From Quinella sp. 1Q7 (GTDB lineage Bacteria > Bacillota > Negativicutes > Selenomonadales > Selenomonadaceae), in the NCBI GenBank assembly GCA_015206805.1, contig JADEZP010000007.1, forward strand, positions 1-41,855: DNA of 41,855 nucleotides, written 5' to 3'. The notes beneath the pieces were generated by a model that worked only from the letters and a program-made list of their open reading frames with translations, was not told the origin of the DNA and searched no databases. A program made the position numbers and the translations under genes. This document shows, in pieces, positions 7,450-37,659 of this stretch. How positions within the stretch are numbered: position 1 is the stretch's first letter; each line of letters opens with the position of its first letter.

Positions 7450-7451
7450 CA

Positions 7452-7489
7452 AAAAAAATTCCCCGCCAAAATCTGACGGGGGATTTTTT
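7452..7489. terminator. Bidirectional terminator between convergent operons
   Basis: A CCCCG/CGGGG stem is extended by A-T pairs, with A8 on the left and T6 on the right. It lies between the PAP2 stop (7449) and the helicase stop (7488) and can end transcription from both sides. Confidence 0.8.
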
Positions 7490-10400
7490 ATTTGCAAGTT
7501 TTGTGTTTTCGCGGCGGAGCATAATCCGAACCGAAACGCTCGCGGAGGCGGTGGAGTTCGGCGCGGCTGATGTAAATCGGTCGCCCGCAAACTTTGCACG
7601 GTTGCGGCAAGCAGACATTTTCTTTGCGGCACTCGTCGCAGTAGTAAGCTTTGCCTTGCGCCGATAAATCGTCGATGAAACCGCGATTGACGGAAAAACT
7701 TTGTCCGCAAGCCGCGCACGTCATGAAAATTTTTTCATTGCGATAGTTGGCGCAGTCACGGCAGTATTCGGAAATTTTTTTGCCCTGCGAACGCAATTCG
7801 TGGAGGACGGCGCGTTTGAAAGTTATCGGACGTTGGCACCGCTTGCACCTGCCGACGGACTCTTCGCGCTCCCAACAGTCACGGCAATATTTCGACGGCT
7901 CTTTGCCTTGCGAATGTAAATCGTCGACTTGTCCCTGCGTGACGAAAAATTTTTGTCCGCAAGCCGCGCACGTCATGAAAATTTTTTCGTTGCGACGGTT
8001 GGCGCAGTCACGGCAGTATTCGGAAATTTTTTTGCCCTGCGAACGCAATTCGTGGAGGACGGCGCGTTTGAAAGTTATCGGACGTTGACACCGCTTGCAC
8101 CTGCCGACGGACTCTTCGCGCTCCCAACAGTCACGGCAATATTTCGACGGCTCTTTGCCCTGCGAATGTAAATCGTCGACTTGTCCCTGCGTGATGAAAA
8201 ATTTTTGTCCGCACGCCGCGCACGTCATGAAAATTTTTTCGCGACGCGCCTTCAAGCAATCCGTACAGTAAGGAAAATCGTCTTCGGTCTTTTGCGTATG
8301 TGCCACGTCCCGCGCCCGAACGATGACTTCATTTTTGCGACACCGTTTGCAAGTGTGCCGCCAAATAATTTTGCACTCCGCACACAACTCCTCACGCGGC
8401 TGACGATAAACGTAGCGGGCGGCGTTGGTATACAACATGTCCGCGCCGCAATGACTGCACTTGTAATGCTCGCCGTCAAAGAGACATTCGGGACAAAAGC
8501 CCTCCGTCAATTCGTCCGCGTCGAACTTTTTGCCGCAACCCGCGCAGGTCAAACGATTATCGCAATCTTGAGCGGGCAAATAATCTTGCGCACGTGTAAA
8601 CGGCGTTTCGGTAAGATCGTCGCCGAAAATTTCCTGCGGCGGCTCGCGGAAGTTCAACGGAAATTCTGCGGCGAAAAATTCTGCGTAACCGACCACTTTA
8701 GCGCAACGTTCCAAATTGTCGGCGACGGTCTGCATGAGGTGACCGGCTTTGTAACGGCGAAAATATTTCAGCGAACCGATGATAATCAGCAAATTCCTTG
8801 CGCGGGAAAAGGCTACGTTCAAGCGTGCGGCATCCGAAAAATATTTCGTCGGCGTATGCGCCCGCGTGGTGCAGTAAATCACAACATCCGCCTCGTCGCC
8901 TTGGAAGGCGTCAATCGTGTTTACGGCAATGTTCGCAAGTCGTTCGGCGCGCAACCTCCAATGCAATTTTTTGTTCTGACGTTTGTACGGCGTAATGACG
9001 GCGATTCGTCCCGAAAAATTTTCGCGGAGCCGCTTGAGCAAGTCGACCGCAACTTGAATCTCGCGCTCGTTGTAGGGGCTGCTTTTCTTGCCGCCCGTCA
9101 AGTCGTCCTGTTGCTCGCGGTAAGTGTCGTCGCCGTCCATGTTCAGGAAGAGTATATTGTTGCCGAAGAACATCGGAAATTTTTTATCGCAATTCGGTGC
9201 GCAGGCAAGTTGCCCGCCATAAAACAAGCGGCTGATCATATCGCCAATCGGTATCGGCATACGGAATTGAATGTTGAGCATACATTTGTTGTCGTCGGGA
9301 CAAGCTTCGTAAAGCTTTTCAAACAGGCTCGTCGCGAAAAATCTGTCGCGGCTGTCCTCGTCGATGATGTCGCTGATGTTTAACTTTGTCTCGTCGAAAA
9401 AGGCGGGGTCAGTGACGGGCGGCAACTGCTTGTGGTCGCCGATGATTATGATTTTTTTTGCGCGGTTAATCGGCATGAGCAATTCGCCCGGCAAAGCTTT
9501 ACCCGCCTCGTCCGCGACGACAAGATCAAAGCTCAACTTGTCCAAGCCGAAATTTTTTTTCTCCAGCCCGACGCACGTCGCACCCGTCACGGAAAAATTT
9601 TTCAGCAGGTATTCGCCGATTTGCCATTGAGTTTCGGCGTTGGTCAACATGTCGCACCAAATTGCCCGATAACGTTGCAGGTCGGCGCGGCAAGGTTTTG
9701 TCAATGTCGCCCGATATTCGGCAACGCGATTTTCCAACGACAACTCCTTAAGCTCGTCGGCAATTTTGTCGTCGTTGCCGCAACGAACAATCGCCGAACG
9801 TTCAATGCCCATTGCCGGCAAGCCTCGCAGGACGTTGTCGACAGCGACGTTTGCCTGCGACACCACCAAAATTTTCGACGCGGGCGCAAGTTTGAGCTGT
9901 TGCCAAATAATTTCCTTGATGACGGTCGTTTTGCCCGTGCCCGGCGGTCCTTGAATCATGAAAAAATTTTCCACGGCAATGGCGCGCACGACGGCTGTCA
10001 GTTGATTTTTGTTGCGCAGGAGTGACGGATTTTTAATCGTCGTCGGGCGTCGCCCCGAATCTTTGAACGGCAAGCGGCTCAAATCGAAAATGCATTCCTT
10101 GAGCGCGGGACGTTGCATTTGACTGCGCCGAAAATCTTCCAACGCCTTCAACTGCATGAGTTCGGGGTAAGGGAATTCGCGAACGTGCACCTCCACGCGC
10201 CAACCGACGCCGTCCAAAAATCTGTCGTCCCAAAAATCATGCGCCGTTATGATTTTGAAGTCGTCCTTGAACGTGACAAAAATTTTTCTGCCGTCCGCGT
10301 CGCGAACAAAAAAATTTGGCTCCGCCTCGTGTTTGTGTGCTTGCCGAACATAAAAATTTTTAAGCCGCGCCGCGCCGTCGTCAGTCGTCAGCAAACGTTT

Positions 10401-11942
10401 CGCGTCGACCTGCTCCAAAATATCAACGCACTCAAAGCCGCCGCTTTCCTTGACACGAACAAGCCGCCGCATTACCGCGCACCACTGATTGAAGAACAAA
10501 ACGTTGTCCCGATTGAATTTGATGCGCCGTTGCTTGAGAAATTCCGCGTTCAAATAAACGAACAAATTCAACGACTCCTGCAGTTGCTCGTGTTCAAGTG
10601 TCGCCGCACGTTCGGCGTTGACCGAATTCAAATCGGCATCCAACGCGACAAAAATATCGTCGGCTCCAATCATTTCCGCGTCGGGCAAAAATTTTTCAAA
10701 GCACATCGTCGGGAATTCGTCGCCGCTGAAATCGACTTGGAAGACGAGCTTTTGCCCCAGCTGACATTTGTAACGCGTCGCAGAAAAATTTTCGTCCTCG
10801 ACAATCGGCGCGATGTACCATTCGTCGTAAGAGTTGTCCGCGTTGCGTTTGTTGACGGTTGCCAAAAAATTATTCACGTCGCGACTTTTTATCAGCAACG
10901 GCACGTTTCGGAAGCGTTCGACGCTCAAACAATCTTCCACGCGTTCGGTAGCGTTCACATAATTTAACGTCTTGCGGTCGTAATTCATCACGTAAACGAA
11001 TTTCCGTTTGCCGATGGGCTCATCTCGTCTGTCGCGGCAAAATTTTTTTCGGAGCGTGACTTCAATGCCGTCCGCGTCCAAAATGTAAGCGTCGACGTAA
11101 CCGCGCTCGTTGAGCTTGTGGCGTTTGATTTTGCCTTCCAGCCGAACGTTCGGGCTCAACTCCAGCTTGTGAAGGAACATGCCCTTCACGCAGGAAAGTT
11201 TGTTTACGTAAGTCGTGTCGTCGTAACCTTCCGCAAGGCAGAAAATAATTTCGTCGTCGGGAAAGAGTCGGTCGATTTGCTCGCTGTCTTCGCAGAAAAA
11301 TTTGCAGTCGACGCGGGGATGAATGCTTTTCTCGAATTCGCCGCCAAGCAGTTCGTCGCGTTCAAAGCCGATAATTTTTCCGGGGTAAGCCCAAAATTCC
11401 GGCAACCTCATTTGAAACGGCTCAAGCAGTTCGCCCGTGCGCTCAAAGAGTTTTTCCGCCGCCTTACCGTAACGTTCCAAATATCGCAGGTAAGCTTTTT
11501 GTCGCGTCGAGGATTCGTAAGCGTCGTTCAAAATTGCCTGCATGGAATTTTGCCGCAATGCCGTCGCTTGATCTTCCGAGCGCGATTTTTTCAGCGTGTC
11601 AATCGTCCGCCGCGTCTGCTCAAGCAAATCGTTCCTGTCGTCGATTTGACCTTGCAATTCCGCCATCAGCACATCGAAATTTTTACGGTTGTGCGACTTG
11701 CGTTCTTCAATGGCGCGTTGTCGCTCCAACCACAAATCGTGCGCCGTCTGCCGCCGCATGTTTTCCAAATCGCGTTGACGGTTGCTGACAATCCGTGAAT
11801 ATTCGGTGTCGGAAGCGGCGAGATATTCGCGGTGGTTTTCTTCCAGCCGACGTTGCCGCTCACGCTCACCGTCGCTCAACGCGTTGAAAAGCAATGCGCC
11901 GCCGACAACCACTGCCGCGCCGATTAAAAGTGTCGGAAACAA
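7488..11942 (-). CDS. Membrane-anchored SF1/Upf1-like helicase with coiled coil and zinc-ribbon array
   Basis: The start is taken as TTG at 11942, seven bases after GGAGGG; a longer frame to 12014 would overlap the upstream gene. Of 1484 residues, 2-22 form a membrane helix (TLLIGAAVVVGGALLFNAL), about 24-120 a charged coiled coil, and about 130-640 have no recognised fold. The SF1 helicase has Walker A GPPGTGKTT near 665, DEAG near 807, GDHKQLPP near 834, QFRM near 890, TIDAFQGDEADVV near 1005 and NVAFSRAR near 1041. The C-terminus (about 1130-1484) carries about eight CxxC zinc ribbons of the zf-trcl kind. Two 84-residue units there are almost identical (see 7711-8214). It should translocate on nucleic acid at the membrane. 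It is the last gene of the 14282-7488 operon; the biological role is unknown. Confidence 0.85.
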   Translation of the reverse strand: MFPTLLIGAAVVVGGALLFNALSDGERERQRRLEENHREYLAASDTEYSRIVSNRQRDLENMRRQTAHDLWLERQRAIEERKSHNRKNFDVLMAELQGQIDDRNDLLEQTRRTIDTLKKSRSEDQATALRQNSMQAILNDAYESSTRQKAYLRYLERYGKAAEKLFERTGELLEPFQMRLPEFWAYPGKIIGFERDELLGGEFEKSIHPRVDCKFFCEDSEQIDRLFPDDEIIFCLAEGYDDTTYVNKLSCVKGMFLHKLELSPNVRLEGKIKRHKLNERGYVDAYILDADGIEVTLRKKFCRDRRDEPIGKRKFVYVMNYDRKTLNYVNATERVEDCLSVERFRNVPLLIKSRDVNNFLATVNKRNADNSYDEWYIAPIVEDENFSATRYKCQLGQKLVFQVDFSGDEFPTMCFEKFLPDAEMIGADDIFVALDADLNSVNAERAATLEHEQLQESLNLFVYLNAEFLKQRRIKFNRDNVLFFNQWCAVMRRLVRVKESGGFECVDILEQVDAKRLLTTDDGAARLKNFYVRQAHKHEAEPNFFVRDADGRKIFVTFKDDFKIITAHDFWDDRFLDGVGWRVEVHVREFPYPELMQLKALEDFRRSQMQRPALKECIFDLSRLPFKDSGRRPTTIKNPSLLRNKNQLTAVVRAIAVENFFMIQGPPGTGKTTVIKEIIWQQLKLAPASKILVVSQANVAVDNVLRGLPAMGIERSAIVRCGNDDKIADELKELSLENRVAEYRATLTKPCRADLQRYRAIWCDMLTNAETQWQIGEYLLKNFSVTGATCVGLEKKNFGLDKLSFDLVVADEAGKALPGELLMPINRAKKIIIIGDHKQLPPVTDPAFFDETKLNISDIIDEDSRDRFFATSLFEKLYEACPDDNKCMLNIQFRMPIPIGDMISRLFYGGQLACAPNCDKKFPMFFGNNILFLNMDGDDTYREQQDDLTGGKKSSPYNEREIQVAVDLLKRLRENFSGRIAVITPYKRQNKKLHWRLRAERLANIAVNTIDAFQGDEADVVIYCTTRAHTPTKYFSDAARLNVAFSRARNLLIIIGSLKYFRRYKAGHLMQTVADNLERCAKVVGYAEFFAAEFPLNFREPPQEIFGDDLTETPFTRAQDYLPAQDCDNRLTCAGCGKKFDADELTEGFCPECLFDGEHYKCSHCGADMLYTNAARYVYRQPREELCAECKIIWRHTCKRCRKNEVIVRARDVAHTQKTEDDFPYCTDCLKARREKIFMTCAACGQKFFITQGQVDDLHSQGKEPSKYCRDCWEREESVGRCKRCQRPITFKRAVLHELRSQGKKISEYCRDCANRRNEKIFMTCAACGQKFFVTQGQVDDLHSQGKEPSKYCRDCWEREESVGRCKRCQRPITFKRAVLHELRSQGKKISEYCRDCANYRNEKIFMTCAACGQSFSVNRGFIDDLSAQGKAYYCDECRKENVCLPQPCKVCGRPIYISRAELHRLRERFGSDYAPPRKHKTCK
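7711..8214 (-). repeat. Two 252-bp tandem repeats inside the helicase gene
   Basis: Bases 7711-7962 and 7963-8214 are direct copies differing at only a handful of positions, and a partial third copy continues on both sides. The period of 252 bases equals 84 codons, so the frame is kept and each unit encodes two zinc ribbons. One starts TCAACGQKFF, the other GRCKRCQRPITFKR when read as protein. The near identity implies recent duplication or gene conversion. Confidence 0.95.
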
Positions 11943-11961
11943 TTTCAAGCCCTCCGCATCG

Positions 11962-12624
11962 TTACTTGTACAGCTCGTGAATTTGCGCGGCGTATTCAAA
12001 AAGTTTGTCGTCAAGCCGCTTGAGCTCCGTCAAAAATTTTTCGTCCGCCACGTCGGAATTCAAACACCGCCGCCGAAGTTCCTGCGCGTAATCAATCACG
12101 GGGTCGACGATTTTTTCAAGCTGCGTCACGCGTCTGCGCCACTGTTCCTGCGAAAATTCGCGGTCTTTTTGACGGTCGGCAAGCTCCAATTTAAATCGCT
12201 CAAACTCAAACCGCTTGACATTCAAATCGGTTTTCAGATTCGCCAAATAACGAACGGTCTCTTGCTCCTGCTGAATTTGTACCTGACGAGTTTCTTCGCG
12301 CTTGCCGGAAATGTAAGCCTCCGCCCGAATTTCGACCTGCCGAGTCTGTTCGCGACTCGTCCGAATTTGCGCGTAAGCTTGAATGGCGGTGTTCACCACG
12401 GAAAGCACGCCGTTGATTAGTGCCGCGCCCGTATTCATGACGCCCATAAACGCGGCAAGGTAATTGTTGCTCGACGTTTGATGAGCGGCAAGGCGATTGT
12501 TGTCCAGTTGCACGGCGCGTTCGTTGTCGGAAATTTTTTTGCGCGTGTAATTGTCCGCGACGTTCGTAACAACCTCGGCGGCGGGCTCAACAAGCGGTAT
12601 CAAACTTGTTGTTTTAAGTGCCAT
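11962..12624 (-). CDS. Membrane-associated coiled-coil protein of the helicase operon
   Basis: The start is the ATG at 12624, eight bases after GGAGG; the longer frame to 12648 would overlap the previous stop. The 220-residue product has a glycine/alanine-rich hydrophobic segment at about residues 55-85 (FMGVMNTGAALINGVLSVVN and beyond). A long charged coiled coil rich in Q, E, R and K follows at about 85-215. No catalytic motif is visible. The gene ends 19 bases before the helicase start and begins 13 bases after the preceding gene, so it is clearly co-transcribed. A scaffold or membrane assembly role with the helicase, which also carries a membrane helix and coiled coil, is inferred. I do not recognise the family. 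Confidence 0.75.
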   Translation of the reverse strand: MALKTTSLIPLVEPAAEVVTNVADNYTRKKISDNERAVQLDNNRLAAHQTSSNNYLAAFMGVMNTGAALINGVLSVVNTAIQAYAQIRTSREQTRQVEIRAEAYISGKREETRQVQIQQEQETVRYLANLKTDLNVKRFEFERFKLELADRQKDREFSQEQWRRRVTQLEKIVDPVIDYAQELRRRCLNSDVADEKFLTELKRLDDKLFEYAAQIHELYK

Positions 12625-12637
12625 TGCAATTCCTCCG

Positions 12638-13234
12638 TTAGCGGTCAATCTTGTTGAGCAAATCGCGAAGCCATTTCTGCTTGACGCGGCAGTCTTCGCA
12701 GACTTGATAATAAAATTTGTTGCGCGTCACAAATTTTTCGGGACTGTCCTCAATTTCGGCAAGGAAAGTCTGCGCCTCCTCCAAGAACGACCGATAAAAC
12801 TCCAGCATTTTAATCTGCGCGGCGACCTCGCGTTGATGACGTTCCCTGTCGTTGCGAATGACTTCAACCTGCGCGGCACTTTGTTGCTCAATGTGTTTCG
12901 TCTCCAAGTCAAATTCCCGACGCTTAGTGTCCAAAAAATTTTTCAGCCGCTCGGCATAGTTCGCAATGATAATTTCGCTTTGCCGACGCGCCTCGGCATT
13001 TCGGGCATCAAGCGCATTTTCCGCCGCAGAAATTTGTCGCGCCAAATCCCGCGTGCGATTGCGCTCGACCAAATAATTCGCGAACGCCGTAAAAATATTC
13101 AAGCTGTCCGCGCAGTGTCGGCGGGCAACGTCAAGATTTACTGCACCGTCATAGCGCGACGGCAAATTTTCCGCAGTCGGCACCGCCTCCGAAAGTTCAT
13201 CCGTCCGCAAAGAGTAAGCGTCCTTCACGCGCAT
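12638..13234 (-). CDS. Coiled-coil protein of the helicase operon
   Basis: The 198-residue product is soluble and mostly helical. The first ~35 residues are polar, about 50-160 is a charged coiled coil (for example ARQISAAENALDARNAEARR) and the C-terminus has a CEDC motif (YYQVCEDCRVKQKW). The start ATG at 13234 has AGGTGA eight bases upstream and overlaps the end of a chimeric ORF (13225-13392) by ten bases (ATGCGCGTGA). Its first 26 codons are duplicated in that ORF by the 158-bp repeat. It probably pairs with the neighbouring coiled-coil protein. Function unknown. Confidence 0.75.
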   Translation of the reverse strand: MRVKDAYSLRTDELSEAVPTAENLPSRYDGAVNLDVARRHCADSLNIFTAFANYLVERNRTRDLARQISAAENALDARNAEARRQSEIIIANYAERLKNFLDTKRREFDLETKHIEQQSAAQVEVIRNDRERHQREVAAQIKMLEFYRSFLEEAQTFLAEIEDSPEKFVTRNKFYYQVCEDCRVKQKWLRDLLNKIDR

Positions 13235-13472
13235 AAAAAGTCACCTGCCACATTTTCCGCAACCAAAATTTTTACGCGATGAATCCCCTCGTCGACGACA
13301 CCGCCGTCATAAAGCGACGGCAAATTTTCCGCAGTCGGCACCGCCTCCGAAAGTTCGTCCGTCCGCAAAGAGTAAGCGTCCTTCACGCGCATAAAAAGTC
13401 ACCTGCCACATTTTCCGCAACCAAAATTTTTACGCGATGAATCCCCTCGTCGACGACACCGCCGTCATAAAG
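13157..13472. repeat. 158-bp tandem direct duplication at a gene boundary
   Basis: Bases 13157-13314 and 13315-13472 are direct copies with one visible difference (ATCCG versus GTCCG). The unit contains the last ~29 codons of the upstream gene and the first ~26 codons of the downstream gene. The length is not a multiple of three, yet each junction leaves an open frame. Confidence 0.95.
13225..13392 (-). CDS. 55-residue chimeric ORF created by tandem duplication
   Basis: The first 26 residues (MRVKDAYSLRTDELSEAVPT and on) copy the N-terminus of the 198-residue protein. The last 29 copy the C-terminus of the 299-residue protein (ending AENVAGDFLCA). The join is at a short shared sequence around CGCTATGACGG, so the fusion is in frame. 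It has the same ribosome binding site as the downstream gene, and each of its ends overlaps a neighbour by ten bases (ATGCGCGTGA). It may be a translated bridge that keeps coupling intact, or simply debris. Confidence 0.55.
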   Translation of the reverse strand: MRVKDAYSLRTDELSEAVPTAENLPSLYDGGVVDEGIHRVKILVAENVAGDFLCA

Positions 13473-14282
13473 CGCAGAAATTTTTTCCGTGAGCTCGCCG
13501 CCTTCAAATTCGGGGCTCGCGCTGAAAGAGAGCGTAACCTCCTCCGAATCGCTGTCGTCGCAGTCGCCCGTGAGTATCGTTCCAAGCAGAAGGTCGACGC
13601 AAAATTTCCGCACACCCGCCGCCGAAGTCACCGTGAACTTTCTGACGGGAATTTCGGCGTTAAACGTCCGCGCCGAATCAAACGTAATGCAACCGTCAAA
13701 ATTATTTTCGCCGACGACGGGCAGATAACGCAGTTCGCGGGCGGCAAAAGACAACTCCGCCGTCTGCTTCCCGCGCAGGATTTTCAGATCGTCGATGACA
13801 TTGCCCGCGCCGCGTCCGATTAAAACTTTCTTCGCCAACGCAGAAATATCCGCGAAGTCGGCAACCCAAACTTGCTCGCAATTTTTCACGACGGCGGCGC
13901 AATTCGTGTCCGCGAAACTTTTTTTGAGCTCAACGGTTTTGGGCAACAGGACGGGCATTTTCATCAACAGGTCGGAAAAAATTTGCGGCGGCTCGACGTT
14001 AAAGGCATTGATAGCGTCGCTCAACGTCAAAATTTTTTCCGCGTCTTCCGGCGAAATGTCGCGGGCGGCACGCATTACATTTTCGATTACGGGCGGCGGC
14101 AACAGCGTGACTGCGGCAATGTCGGTGGGGGATTTTCTGTCGCGCAACATGAGCAATGTCAACAACTCCAAATCGTTGAGCTTATAATCCGACGCGGCGA
14201 AATCCACGCGCAAATTTTCTTTTATCAGCGGCGTGCAGAAAAATTTTCTTTGCACGGGCAGATAACATTTCGGCTGAATCAT
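13383..14282 (-). CDS. First protein of the helicase operon, unknown function
   Basis: The start is the ATG at 14282 (MIQPKCYLP), eight bases after GAGG. The open frame to 14369 would translate through the nrdD terminator and is rejected. The 299-residue product is soluble. Residues 35-75 (ASDYKLNDLELLTLLMLRDR and on) form a helical region that could be a winged-helix or HTH-like fold. The C-terminal half is beta-rich, with an acidic stretch GDCDDSDSEEV near residue 240. No enzyme motif is evident. It ends overlapping the chimeric ORF and leads the operon with two coiled-coil proteins and the helicase. I do not recognise the family. Confidence 0.7.
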   Translation of the reverse strand: MIQPKCYLPVQRKFFCTPLIKENLRVDFAASDYKLNDLELLTLLMLRDRKSPTDIAAVTLLPPPVIENVMRAARDISPEDAEKILTLSDAINAFNVEPPQIFSDLLMKMPVLLPKTVELKKSFADTNCAAVVKNCEQVWVADFADISALAKKVLIGRGAGNVIDDLKILRGKQTAELSFAARELRYLPVVGENNFDGCITFDSARTFNAEIPVRKFTVTSAAGVRKFCVDLLLGTILTGDCDDSDSEEVTLSFSASPEFEGGELTEKISALYDGGVVDEGIHRVKILVAENVAGDFLCA

Positions 14283-14329: not shown

Positions 14330-14367
14330 AAAAAACCTGCCGCCAAATTTTCGGCGGAGGTTTTTTC
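14330..14367 (-). terminator. Terminator of nrdD
   Basis: The stem AACCTGCCGCC / GGCGGAGGTT (14334-14344 with 14353-14362) is followed on the minus strand by at least nine T residues. It overlaps the nrdD stop region and separates it from the helicase operon, so that operon probably needs its own promoter. I could not place one with confidence. Confidence 0.85.
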
Positions 14368-36445: not shown

Positions 36446-36660
36446 CGCCGTCAATAAAAAAACCCCCTGCACGTCGCGGAGGATTAAGCGGCTCGTGAAT
36501 TGCTCAATGTCAACGCGCCGTCAATAAAATTCCCGCACGTCGCGGAGGATTAAGCGGCTCGTGAATCGTTCAATGACAACGCGCCGTCAATAAAATTCCC
36601 GCACGTCGCAGAGGATTAAGCGGCTCGTGAATCGTTCAATGACAACGCGCCGTCAATAAA
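36446..36660. repeat. Three-plus tandem copies of a 66-bp noncoding repeat
   Basis: The unit begins CGCCGTCAATAAAA and contains GGAGGATTAAGCGGCTCGTG. Copies start at 36446, 36516, 36582 and 36648 (partial), with a first period of 70 and then exactly 66. All six frames are interrupted, so it is not coding. The GTCAA part gives TTGACG on the minus strand, so each copy carries a potential -35 box. The rest of 36399-36702 holds only the promoter and a terminator. Confidence 0.9.
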
Positions 36661-36664
36661 AAAA

Positions 36665-36702: not shown

Positions 36703-37551
36703 TCAATAGAGGAACACGACCGCGATATTGTCGAGGAAATGAGTTCTGTCGTTTTCGTAAAGCACCATGTCGGCATCTTCCATGCTCAAAACGGGCGTGG
36801 CGTTGAGGTCGTCGAGCCACATTGCGCGGACAATCAGCGGGTTGGAACCTGCGCGGCTTGCACCGTTCATGTCGTAGGCATAAGACGCCATGCCTTCGCG
36901 AATGATTCTGTCGTAGTCAAGATTTTTGTGCCCGTAAATTTTTTGACCGTGAGCATTTTTGATGACGGGGCTCATGACGGGATTGAGTTCGCCCAAGCCG
37001 CGACAGTCGACGACAAGTCCCGTGTAGTTGCCGCTACCGGAATACGTCGGCCGGTAATCGGGGATTGGCGGCACGTAATCTGTCGGCGGGCGATAATCGG
37101 GCGCGGGCGTCGGGAACGGCTCAATCGTCGTCGGGCGTTCAATGACTGTTTCAGCCAGTGAGTTTGTCCCGCCGAACATCGGCAGTTCCATCGTGACGGA
37201 ATAACCGCCGCCGTTGAGTTCGCCTTCCGAGACAATTTGCGCACCTTTGATAATCGCGCTGACCTTCGTGCGCACGGTGTCGGATTCGAGCATCATTTTT
37301 TCGACGGTCGTTTCAGCGTCGACCTGCACGCCGTTGATGACCTCCGCAAGTTGACGGTAAGCGTCGCTGATTGCCGCGCGACGTGCCATCATTGACGCGT
37401 GAGCAGGGCTTATCGCATTCGGCGGCGCGACGCCCATTCCCGTCACTTGAATCACGTTGGTATTCCAATTCGGCGCGGCGTCCACAGTCGAGCTCAACGA
37501 CAGCACGATTGCCGCCAACAATACGCCGAAAATTTTTAACTTCCGCCACAT
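36703..37551 (-). CDS. Exported LPP20-like protein
   Basis: The start is the ATG at 37551, eight bases after GGGAGG. The 282-residue product begins with a Sec signal peptide (KLKIFGVLLAAIVLSLSS, cleavage near VDA-AP). Residues 35-130 have the LPP20/FlgT-N-like pattern (VTGMGVAPPNAISPAHASMM, then ARRAAISDAYRQLAEVINGV). A proline/tyrosine-rich linker (PAPDYRPPTDYVPPIPDYRP) precedes a C-terminal domain with GLVVDCRGLGELNPVMSP. There is no lipobox cysteine, so it is probably periplasmic, not a lipoprotein. Function unknown; envelope-associated by context. Confidence 0.75.
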   Translation of the reverse strand: MWRKLKIFGVLLAAIVLSLSSTVDAAPNWNTNVIQVTGMGVAPPNAISPAHASMMARRAAISDAYRQLAEVINGVQVDAETTVEKMMLESDTVRTKVSAIIKGAQIVSEGELNGGGYSVTMELPMFGGTNSLAETVIERPTTIEPFPTPAPDYRPPTDYVPPIPDYRPTYSGSGNYTGLVVDCRGLGELNPVMSPVIKNAHGQKIYGHKNLDYDRIIREGMASYAYDMNGASRAGSNPLIVRAMWLDDLNATPVLSMEDADMVLYENDRTHFLDNIAVVFLY

Positions 37552-37659
37552 GGTCAAGACCTCCCAAATTTTTTGTCAAGCGCAGTTTACGTTGGCACGA
37601 TTAGAATCCGCTTTGAGCCGCCGAAAAATTTTGTTAGGCGCGGGCGGCAAAGTTCCTGC

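Follow-up and report, generated by a model that had tools for sequence, protein, structure and literature searches.

The DNA analysed here (the window) is a stretch of 41,855 nucleotides of contig JADEZP010000007.1 from Quinella sp. 1Q7 (Selenomonadaceae), a gut-type bacterium whose draft genome is 95% complete with 5.7% contamination. On its minus strand, from 14282 down to 7488, the window carries an operon of four open reading frames (ORFs) that ends in a large UPF1-like helicase. In operon order, the genes encode a 299-aa leader protein (P0002, 13383..14282), a 198-aa protein that by composition is charged and helical and contains a CEDC motif (P0004, 12638..13234), a 220-aa protein in which a Gly/Ala-rich hydrophobic segment precedes a long charged helix (P0003, 11962..12624), and the 1484-aa superfamily 1 (SF1) helicase, assigned by motifs and family matches (P0001, 7488..11942). 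The intergenic gaps are 148, 13 and 19 nt. Coordinates and sizes agree with the first-pass annotation, made from the bare sequence, which had described four co-directional frames with short gaps and had noted the CEDC motif. The helicase most likely starts at a TTG codon at 11942, with GGAGG 8 nt before it, which gives 1484 aa; P0001 as numbered here begins one codon upstream, and its residue numbers are hence higher by one. Where the 299-aa and 198-aa genes meet, there is a 158-bp tandem duplication (98% identical, 13146..13461, minus strand) that could be an assembly artefact. Part of it sits in the 148-nt gap; in its first copy the stop of the 299-aa gene overlaps a copy of the 198-aa start, and a 55-aa truncated copy of the start of the 198-aa protein is left behind.

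Along the helicase, again on the minus strand, an N-terminal membrane anchor (11877..11942, mean hydropathy 2.29 for residues 2-20) is followed by a long charged helical region (11451..11876), a region without a convincing relative in the searches made (10176..11450), the helicase core (8736..10157, delimited by Pfam, PADLOC and motif spacing), a zinc cassette (8127..8546) and an amplified series of treble-clef-like zinc units, some of them within 252-bp direct repeats (7491..8126). The core has the SF1 motifs that had been read from it before, with Walker A at residue 666, Walker B at 809, motif III at 836 and motif VI at 1043. Pfam places AAA_11 and AAA_12 on the protein, and PDB sequence matches are to SMUBP-2, NAM7/UPF1, SEN1 and NFX1-type helicases (best E 3.1e-24), while the score against TIGR00376 is 201.9 bits, under the cut-off of 348.9. 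Its top PADLOC match is MkoA (PDLC03920, E 3.5e-112), which covers the core only (621-1103 of a 1508-aa frame, roughly P0001 residues 598-1080). Among 189 genomes of the family, the nearest core belongs to a Mokosh helicase, L017 (41% over 279 aa); a place of the core among Mokosh-type UPF1-like helicases is supported.

Matches to the whole helicase at E <= 1e-30 occur in 7 of the 189 family genomes, the own genome included. The L017 helicase matches MkoA from residue 3, from the kinase end to the helicase end, and also matches kinase models; its adjoining partner matches MkoB. Five of the six relatives were retrieved with a complete next gene (L017 and L026-L029), and by eye each of the five partners has a winged helix-turn-helix (wHTH)-like region, aligned in alignment A2. 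P0001 stands apart in its motif spacing, in that Walker A and motif III are separated by 170 aa, versus 336 aa in the Mokosh relative. This distance could be measured in 8 of 9 related helicases, none of them a CnuH, and amounts to 291-384 aa in 6; in L019 and L020, both from plasmids, it is about as small as in P0001 (165 and 177 aa). The sections of PMC11090510 cited throughout this work present a large helical insertion after Walker A of CoCoNuT helicases that is modelled as contacting a wHTH partner. The 170-aa spacing hence indicates that P0001 lacks an insertion of this kind. As a separate observation, L026-L029 are same-family operons with a related helicase and a wHTH-like partner, of which L028 and L029 are preceded by two kinase-like genes (by eye). 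The L028 helicase matches MkoA and its partner no MkoB in PADLOC, and L028 could be an undescribed relative of Mokosh.

The 442 residues from motif VI on contain 17 CxxC knuckles that make up eight complete zinc sites and one incomplete site, in line with the count of about eight zinc ribbons given earlier. A match to this zinc region in the same genome, on contig C54, is the tail of a kinase-like ORF beside VWA and PP2C genes, a TerY-P-type triad whose kinase is cut by the contig end. The helicase tail and the C54 cassette are identical at 32 of 75 aligned residues (80 columns, score 183). Alignment A5, which combines the window with 21 of 22 named loci (L083, like L082, was left out), has 12 cysteines invariant in all 22 rows. 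Judged by its sequence, the zinc tail of the helicase is a homologue of the C-terminal zinc cassette of TerY-P kinases. It holds one extra zinc site inside the cassette, after which the further treble-clef-like units follow. The 252-bp direct repeats (7649-8241) each encode two zinc units of the tail and amount to a recent-looking change in copy number.

Searching the family genomes with the tail gave a cassette match in 14 of 189, own genome included, and the regions of 12 of the 13 others were retrieved (G031 was left out). Kinase, VWA and PP2C occur together in 10 of these 12 regions; L051 has a broken kinase and PP2C with no VWA frame found, and in L060 no triad was seen. Pfam was run on the L054 and L058 kinases and the L058 VWA protein, with other triad calls made by motif and likeness; both kinases gave kinase and zinc treble-clef matches and weak, below-cut-off PIN matches. 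A tail-pattern scan of genome contigs yielded 22 named loci, several of them from genomes already in the family set. A VWA gene adjoins the cassette protein in 20 of the 22, and L068 ends soon past the kinase. Among the matches listed (12 of the 13 other family genomes and the 22 named loci, partly the same genomes), the window has the only cassette on a helicase, and no UPF1-type helicase lies beside any cassette (about 6.5 to 18 kb covered for L068-L075). Allisonella histaminiformans (L063, 9380-10330) has a PIN-like protein, by eye, fused to a TerY-P cassette without a kinase.

An AlphaFold2 model of residues 1128-1290 was confident over the first 60 residues (block means of 92-97), with 81 as a whole and a predicted TM score (pTM) of 0.46. 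Its fold matches were weak and mixed, with oxidoreductase subunits first and then PHD, TRAF, LIM and FYVE types, and weak sequence matches pointed to DNA-binding C2H2 fingers. On such matches, binding of nucleic acid by the tail should not be taken for granted. The zinc sites noted earlier stand, but the tail is no generic set of zinc ribbons: it is the cassette of TerY-P kinases. Because kinase and helicase share the cassette, we prefer docking to a common partner or sensing of a common signal: the helicase tail probably either binds the kinase-phosphatase switch of TerY-P or responds to the signal that this switch senses. TerY-P was hypothesised to be a metal-sensing, phosphorylation-dependent switch (cited in PMC11090510), and UPF1-like CnuH helicases occur with TerY-P in CoCoNuTs according to the same sections of that work.

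Pfam, NCBIfam, PADLOC and PHROGs gave no convincing match to any of the three partner proteins; for P0002 there were zero matches up to E 1 in the first three libraries and zero up to E 0.1 in PHROGs. Two candidates were considered for P0002 and neither is used as a claim. One is a faint likeness of residues 36-75 to the wHTH-like region in partners of Mokosh-like helicases (hhalign E 0.08, probability 0.7%, in one comparison). Residues 36-102 align with the N-terminus of a protein that we take to be TelA-like (20/66 identical, score 87; mean 37 and maximum 69 in 1000 shuffles), a single match among the 189 genomes. As the two candidates overlap, at most one can be correct. Likeness of P0003 and P0004 to proteins of two other loci, L131 and L133 (scores 79 and 99 versus shuffle maxima of 59 and 63), probably reflects helix composition.

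Three of the four operon proteins have long charged helices in which Gly and Pro are scarce or absent. A crude Fourier test at period 3.5 put 1 of 9 segments above shuffles at about the 5% level (P0003 120-180, 89/2000 shuffles), and a scan over periods 3.2-4.2 put none of 10 stretches above them (smallest 53/500). With heptad periodicity mostly not above shuffles, we call these regions long charged helices rather than proven coiled coils; a coiled coil is plausible, and of the coiled coils annotated at first the helical character holds, while the heptad signal generally fails to support them. Likewise, of the two membrane segments annotated, the N-terminal helix of the helicase is clear and the Gly/Ala segment of P0003, with a hydropathy of 1.55, is borderline.

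Apart from itself, the N-terminal half of the helicase found nothing among the 189 family genomes, and a draw of 398 genomes from the phylum added two matches (E 0.0036 and 0.0066) that we judged to be chance, since by eye one is a CarB-like and the other a regulator-like ORF. In 82 genomes of another class there was none, an empty answer obtained without a positive control, and the N-terminal 640 residues had no relative in plasmids or phages. For the whole helicase there were matches in 170 plasmid and 5 phage records, with identity always below 60% and coverage of the protein never reaching 80%. Scans with single proteins of genome contigs (P0001) and viral contigs (P0001-P0004) gave no relative; with helicase alignment A1 at least three core-only relatives were confirmed in viral contigs, and with alignment A3 none of 30 stretches. 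In the family set the partners have weak matches, P0002 in one other genome (E 1e-4), P0003 in one (E 0.0067) and P0004 in three (E 1.4e-4 to 0.0023); P0003 furthermore has no plasmid match and no paralogue in its own genome.

The operon is an insert at the PAP2/nrdD site. PAP2 homologues occur in 43 of 60 genus genomes, counting the own one. Of 19 relatives retrieved, 4 (L106, L112, L113 and L118) have PAP2 and nrdD next to each other in convergent orientation, separated by one terminator-like hairpin; 2 of 19 (L109 and L117) have one small gene in between, and in 13 of 19 nrdD was not seen beside PAP2 within the retrieved stretch. The window has the operon between PAP2 and nrdD, flanked on either side by a terminator-like hairpin (by eye): the one on the PAP2 side (7451..7489) matches the single hairpin of the empty sites, and a second stands on the nrdD side (14336..14366). 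No integrase gene was seen adjoining the operon. Codon usage agrees with the flank genes at 0.949 for the helicase and 0.833 for the three partners, with single flank genes scoring 0.58-0.89 against the rest. Contamination was judged an unlikely explanation from codon usage and GC content (0.518 vs 0.516 and 0.535). In L106, L109 and L118, nrdD itself is in pieces with small ORFs between them, some HNH-like by eye; these may perhaps be introns.

By their defining parts, the operon is not a Mokosh, CoCoNuT or TerY-P system. Mokosh type I has a Ser/Thr kinase domain on MkoA and a PLD partner, MkoB, and in type II MkoC is a helicase fused to PLD. With type I the operon shares the helicase core family, as seen in the MkoA match and the similarity to L017. 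In contrast, P0001 has no kinase family among the best 25 of 29 Pfam matches, the remainder being weaker than E 0.18, and for the three partners neither Pfam nor PADLOC gave MkoB or PLD at E values up to 1. Beyond its shorter Walker A to motif III distance, the window helicase adds the membrane anchor and the zinc tail. Against type II, the best MkoC stretch falls within the helicase core, with no PLD family among the same 25 matches. SF1B helicases of the Upf1/SMUBP-2/SEN1 kind share the core motifs and provide the PDB sequence matches, but P0001 differs from them in its membrane anchor and TerY-P-type zinc tail and stays below the TIGR00376 cut-off. The operon resembles type II and III CoCoNuTs, as portrayed in the cited sections of PMC11090510, in its UPF1-like helicase, helical partners, TerY-P in the network and a possible wHTH protein; unlike them it has no McrB or McrC match (for the helicase among the best 25 of 29 Pfam matches), no recognised effector and no long insertion in its helicase. 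Elsewhere in the same genome, on contig C62 (L124, 5908-8432), we noticed an McrC match preceded by a gene that by position is likely McrB.

The TerY-P triad, a kinase with zinc tail, VWA and PP2C, has in common with the operon the zinc cassette with all 12 cysteines, whereas none of the operon proteins matched a kinase, VWA or phosphatase family in Pfam. A locus of Anaerovibrio sp. JC8 (L058/L080) is similar in that its TerY-P genes are accompanied by those for an ATPase and a small hydrophobic protein. Its ATPase, however, is of HerA type (Pfam DUF87 at its cut-off) and not SF1, and its hydrophobic protein is unrelated to P0003 by score (37 versus a shuffle mean of 36). The JC8 locus runs from TerY-P through the HerA-type ATPase and the hydrophobic protein to further small genes. 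A cluster in another genome (L133, G074) has a fragment that resembles the JC8 HerA-type ATPase, a hydrophobic protein, a dynamin-like GTPase, a radical SAM protein, two proteins with CCVGNC-type Cys repeats and repeat-rich helical proteins.

These comparisons suggest that the operon is a rare, undescribed relative of bacterial anti-phage machines. We tentatively favour, at somewhat less than even odds, an inserted immune-type system made of a tethered UPF1-like motor, a TerY-P zinc tail and helical partners; as far as sequence can tell, defence would be its likeliest role. Its core would be a nucleic-acid motor of the Mokosh/CnuH kind that the N-terminal helix tethers to the inner membrane. 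The zinc tail would probably dock to the TerY-P switch encoded elsewhere in the genome, or sense the same signal. Close to the membrane, the motor would then engage foreign RNA or single-stranded DNA and translocate along it by ATP hydrolysis, while the helical partners hold the complex together. As output, the 220-aa protein could damage the membrane, or the 299-aa protein could contain an unrecognised effector; this output would stop the phage or the cell. We count in favour the MkoA match and the L017 core, the homology of the zinc tail to TerY-P kinase tails, the CnuH helicases that occur with TerY-P in CoCoNuTs, the TerY-P-type locus in the own genome, the presence of the cassette in 14 of 189 family genomes, the empty sites and the detection of the N-terminal half in one genome only.

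Several observations weigh against it. No nuclease or other effector was recognised in the operon by Pfam, NCBIfam or PADLOC, and no second copy of the operon was found in the collections searched. The TerY-P locus lies on another contig, in one genome only, which makes coupling in trans a guess. Helicases of this family typically have a downstream gene for a wHTH-effector protein in the PMC11090510 sections, whereas the window helicase is last in its operon. Codon usage is host-like, so that the insert is not visibly foreign; the agreement with the flank genes would mean that the insert came from a close relative or arrived long ago. Those neighbouring genes that match a family are of housekeeping type and do not form a defence island. 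Of the idea of a Upf1-like helicase complex, perhaps for defence, the Mokosh-like core and the clear anchor helix hold and an insertion and the TerY-P kinase cassette have been added; a defence-island setting is not supported.

The host-like codon usage and housekeeping setting would also suit a host motor for RNA surveillance or decay that sits at the membrane as a bacterial counterpart of Upf1, in which the anchored helicase remodels cellular RNA and the zinc tail recruits partners, and the PDB sequence matches to SMUBP-2, NAM7/UPF1, SEN1 and NFX1-type proteins point the same way. A housekeeping RNA factor should be widespread, however, and the N-terminal half in one of 189 family genomes, to which the 398-genome draw adds only the two matches judged to be chance, speaks against this; we regard it as unlikely. 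Similarly improbable is a side branch of TerY-P in stress or metal signalling, where the tail would be a sensor of metal or oxidation and the helicase would be acted on by the switch or serve as its output. Here the shared cassette, the hypothesis of TerY-P as a metal-sensing switch (in the cited part of PMC11090510) and the kinase-free PIN-like protein of Allisonella stand against a triad that does not adjoin the operon and a cassette that could be a freely moving module; moreover, helicase activity would go unexplained.

To a chance assembly, in which a helicase with a gained zinc tail stands beside three unrelated helical or otherwise unassigned ORFs and perhaps decays, we assign a still smaller probability. 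The weak partner matches in the family genomes and the recent-looking duplications in the operon would fit, but tight gaps, intact frames, plausible start sites and the long charged helices common to three of the four proteins do not. A DNA-uptake or conjugation machine, the other role entertained in the first-pass annotation, is very improbable: it has in its favour the membrane anchor and nucleic-acid motor only, the closest helicases are of defence type, and the window ORFs scanned with Pfam include no competence, pilus or relaxase family.

A further reading, which we consider rather doubtful, is that the operon stands for a new class: a membrane-tethered UPF1-like immune motor without recognisable nuclease, which would use a TerY-P tail, tuned by the copy number of the 252-bp zinc unit, as docking or sensing part and would act via two helical partners at the membrane. 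The operon would enlarge a helicase group known mostly from nuclease-associated members by a branch tethered to the membrane. In the literature searched, we found no description of a helicase combined with TerY-P cassette and such partners. UPF1-like helicases and TerY-P are described as neighbours in CoCoNuTs in the PMC11090510 sections, and the presence of the cassette on the helicase itself is a physical clue to the way in which the TerY-P switch may be linked with helicases of this type.

At some distance from the operon, the window also has a 66-bp tandem repeat of 2.9 copies (36469-36661) that adjoins an LPP20-type ORF (36703-37557).

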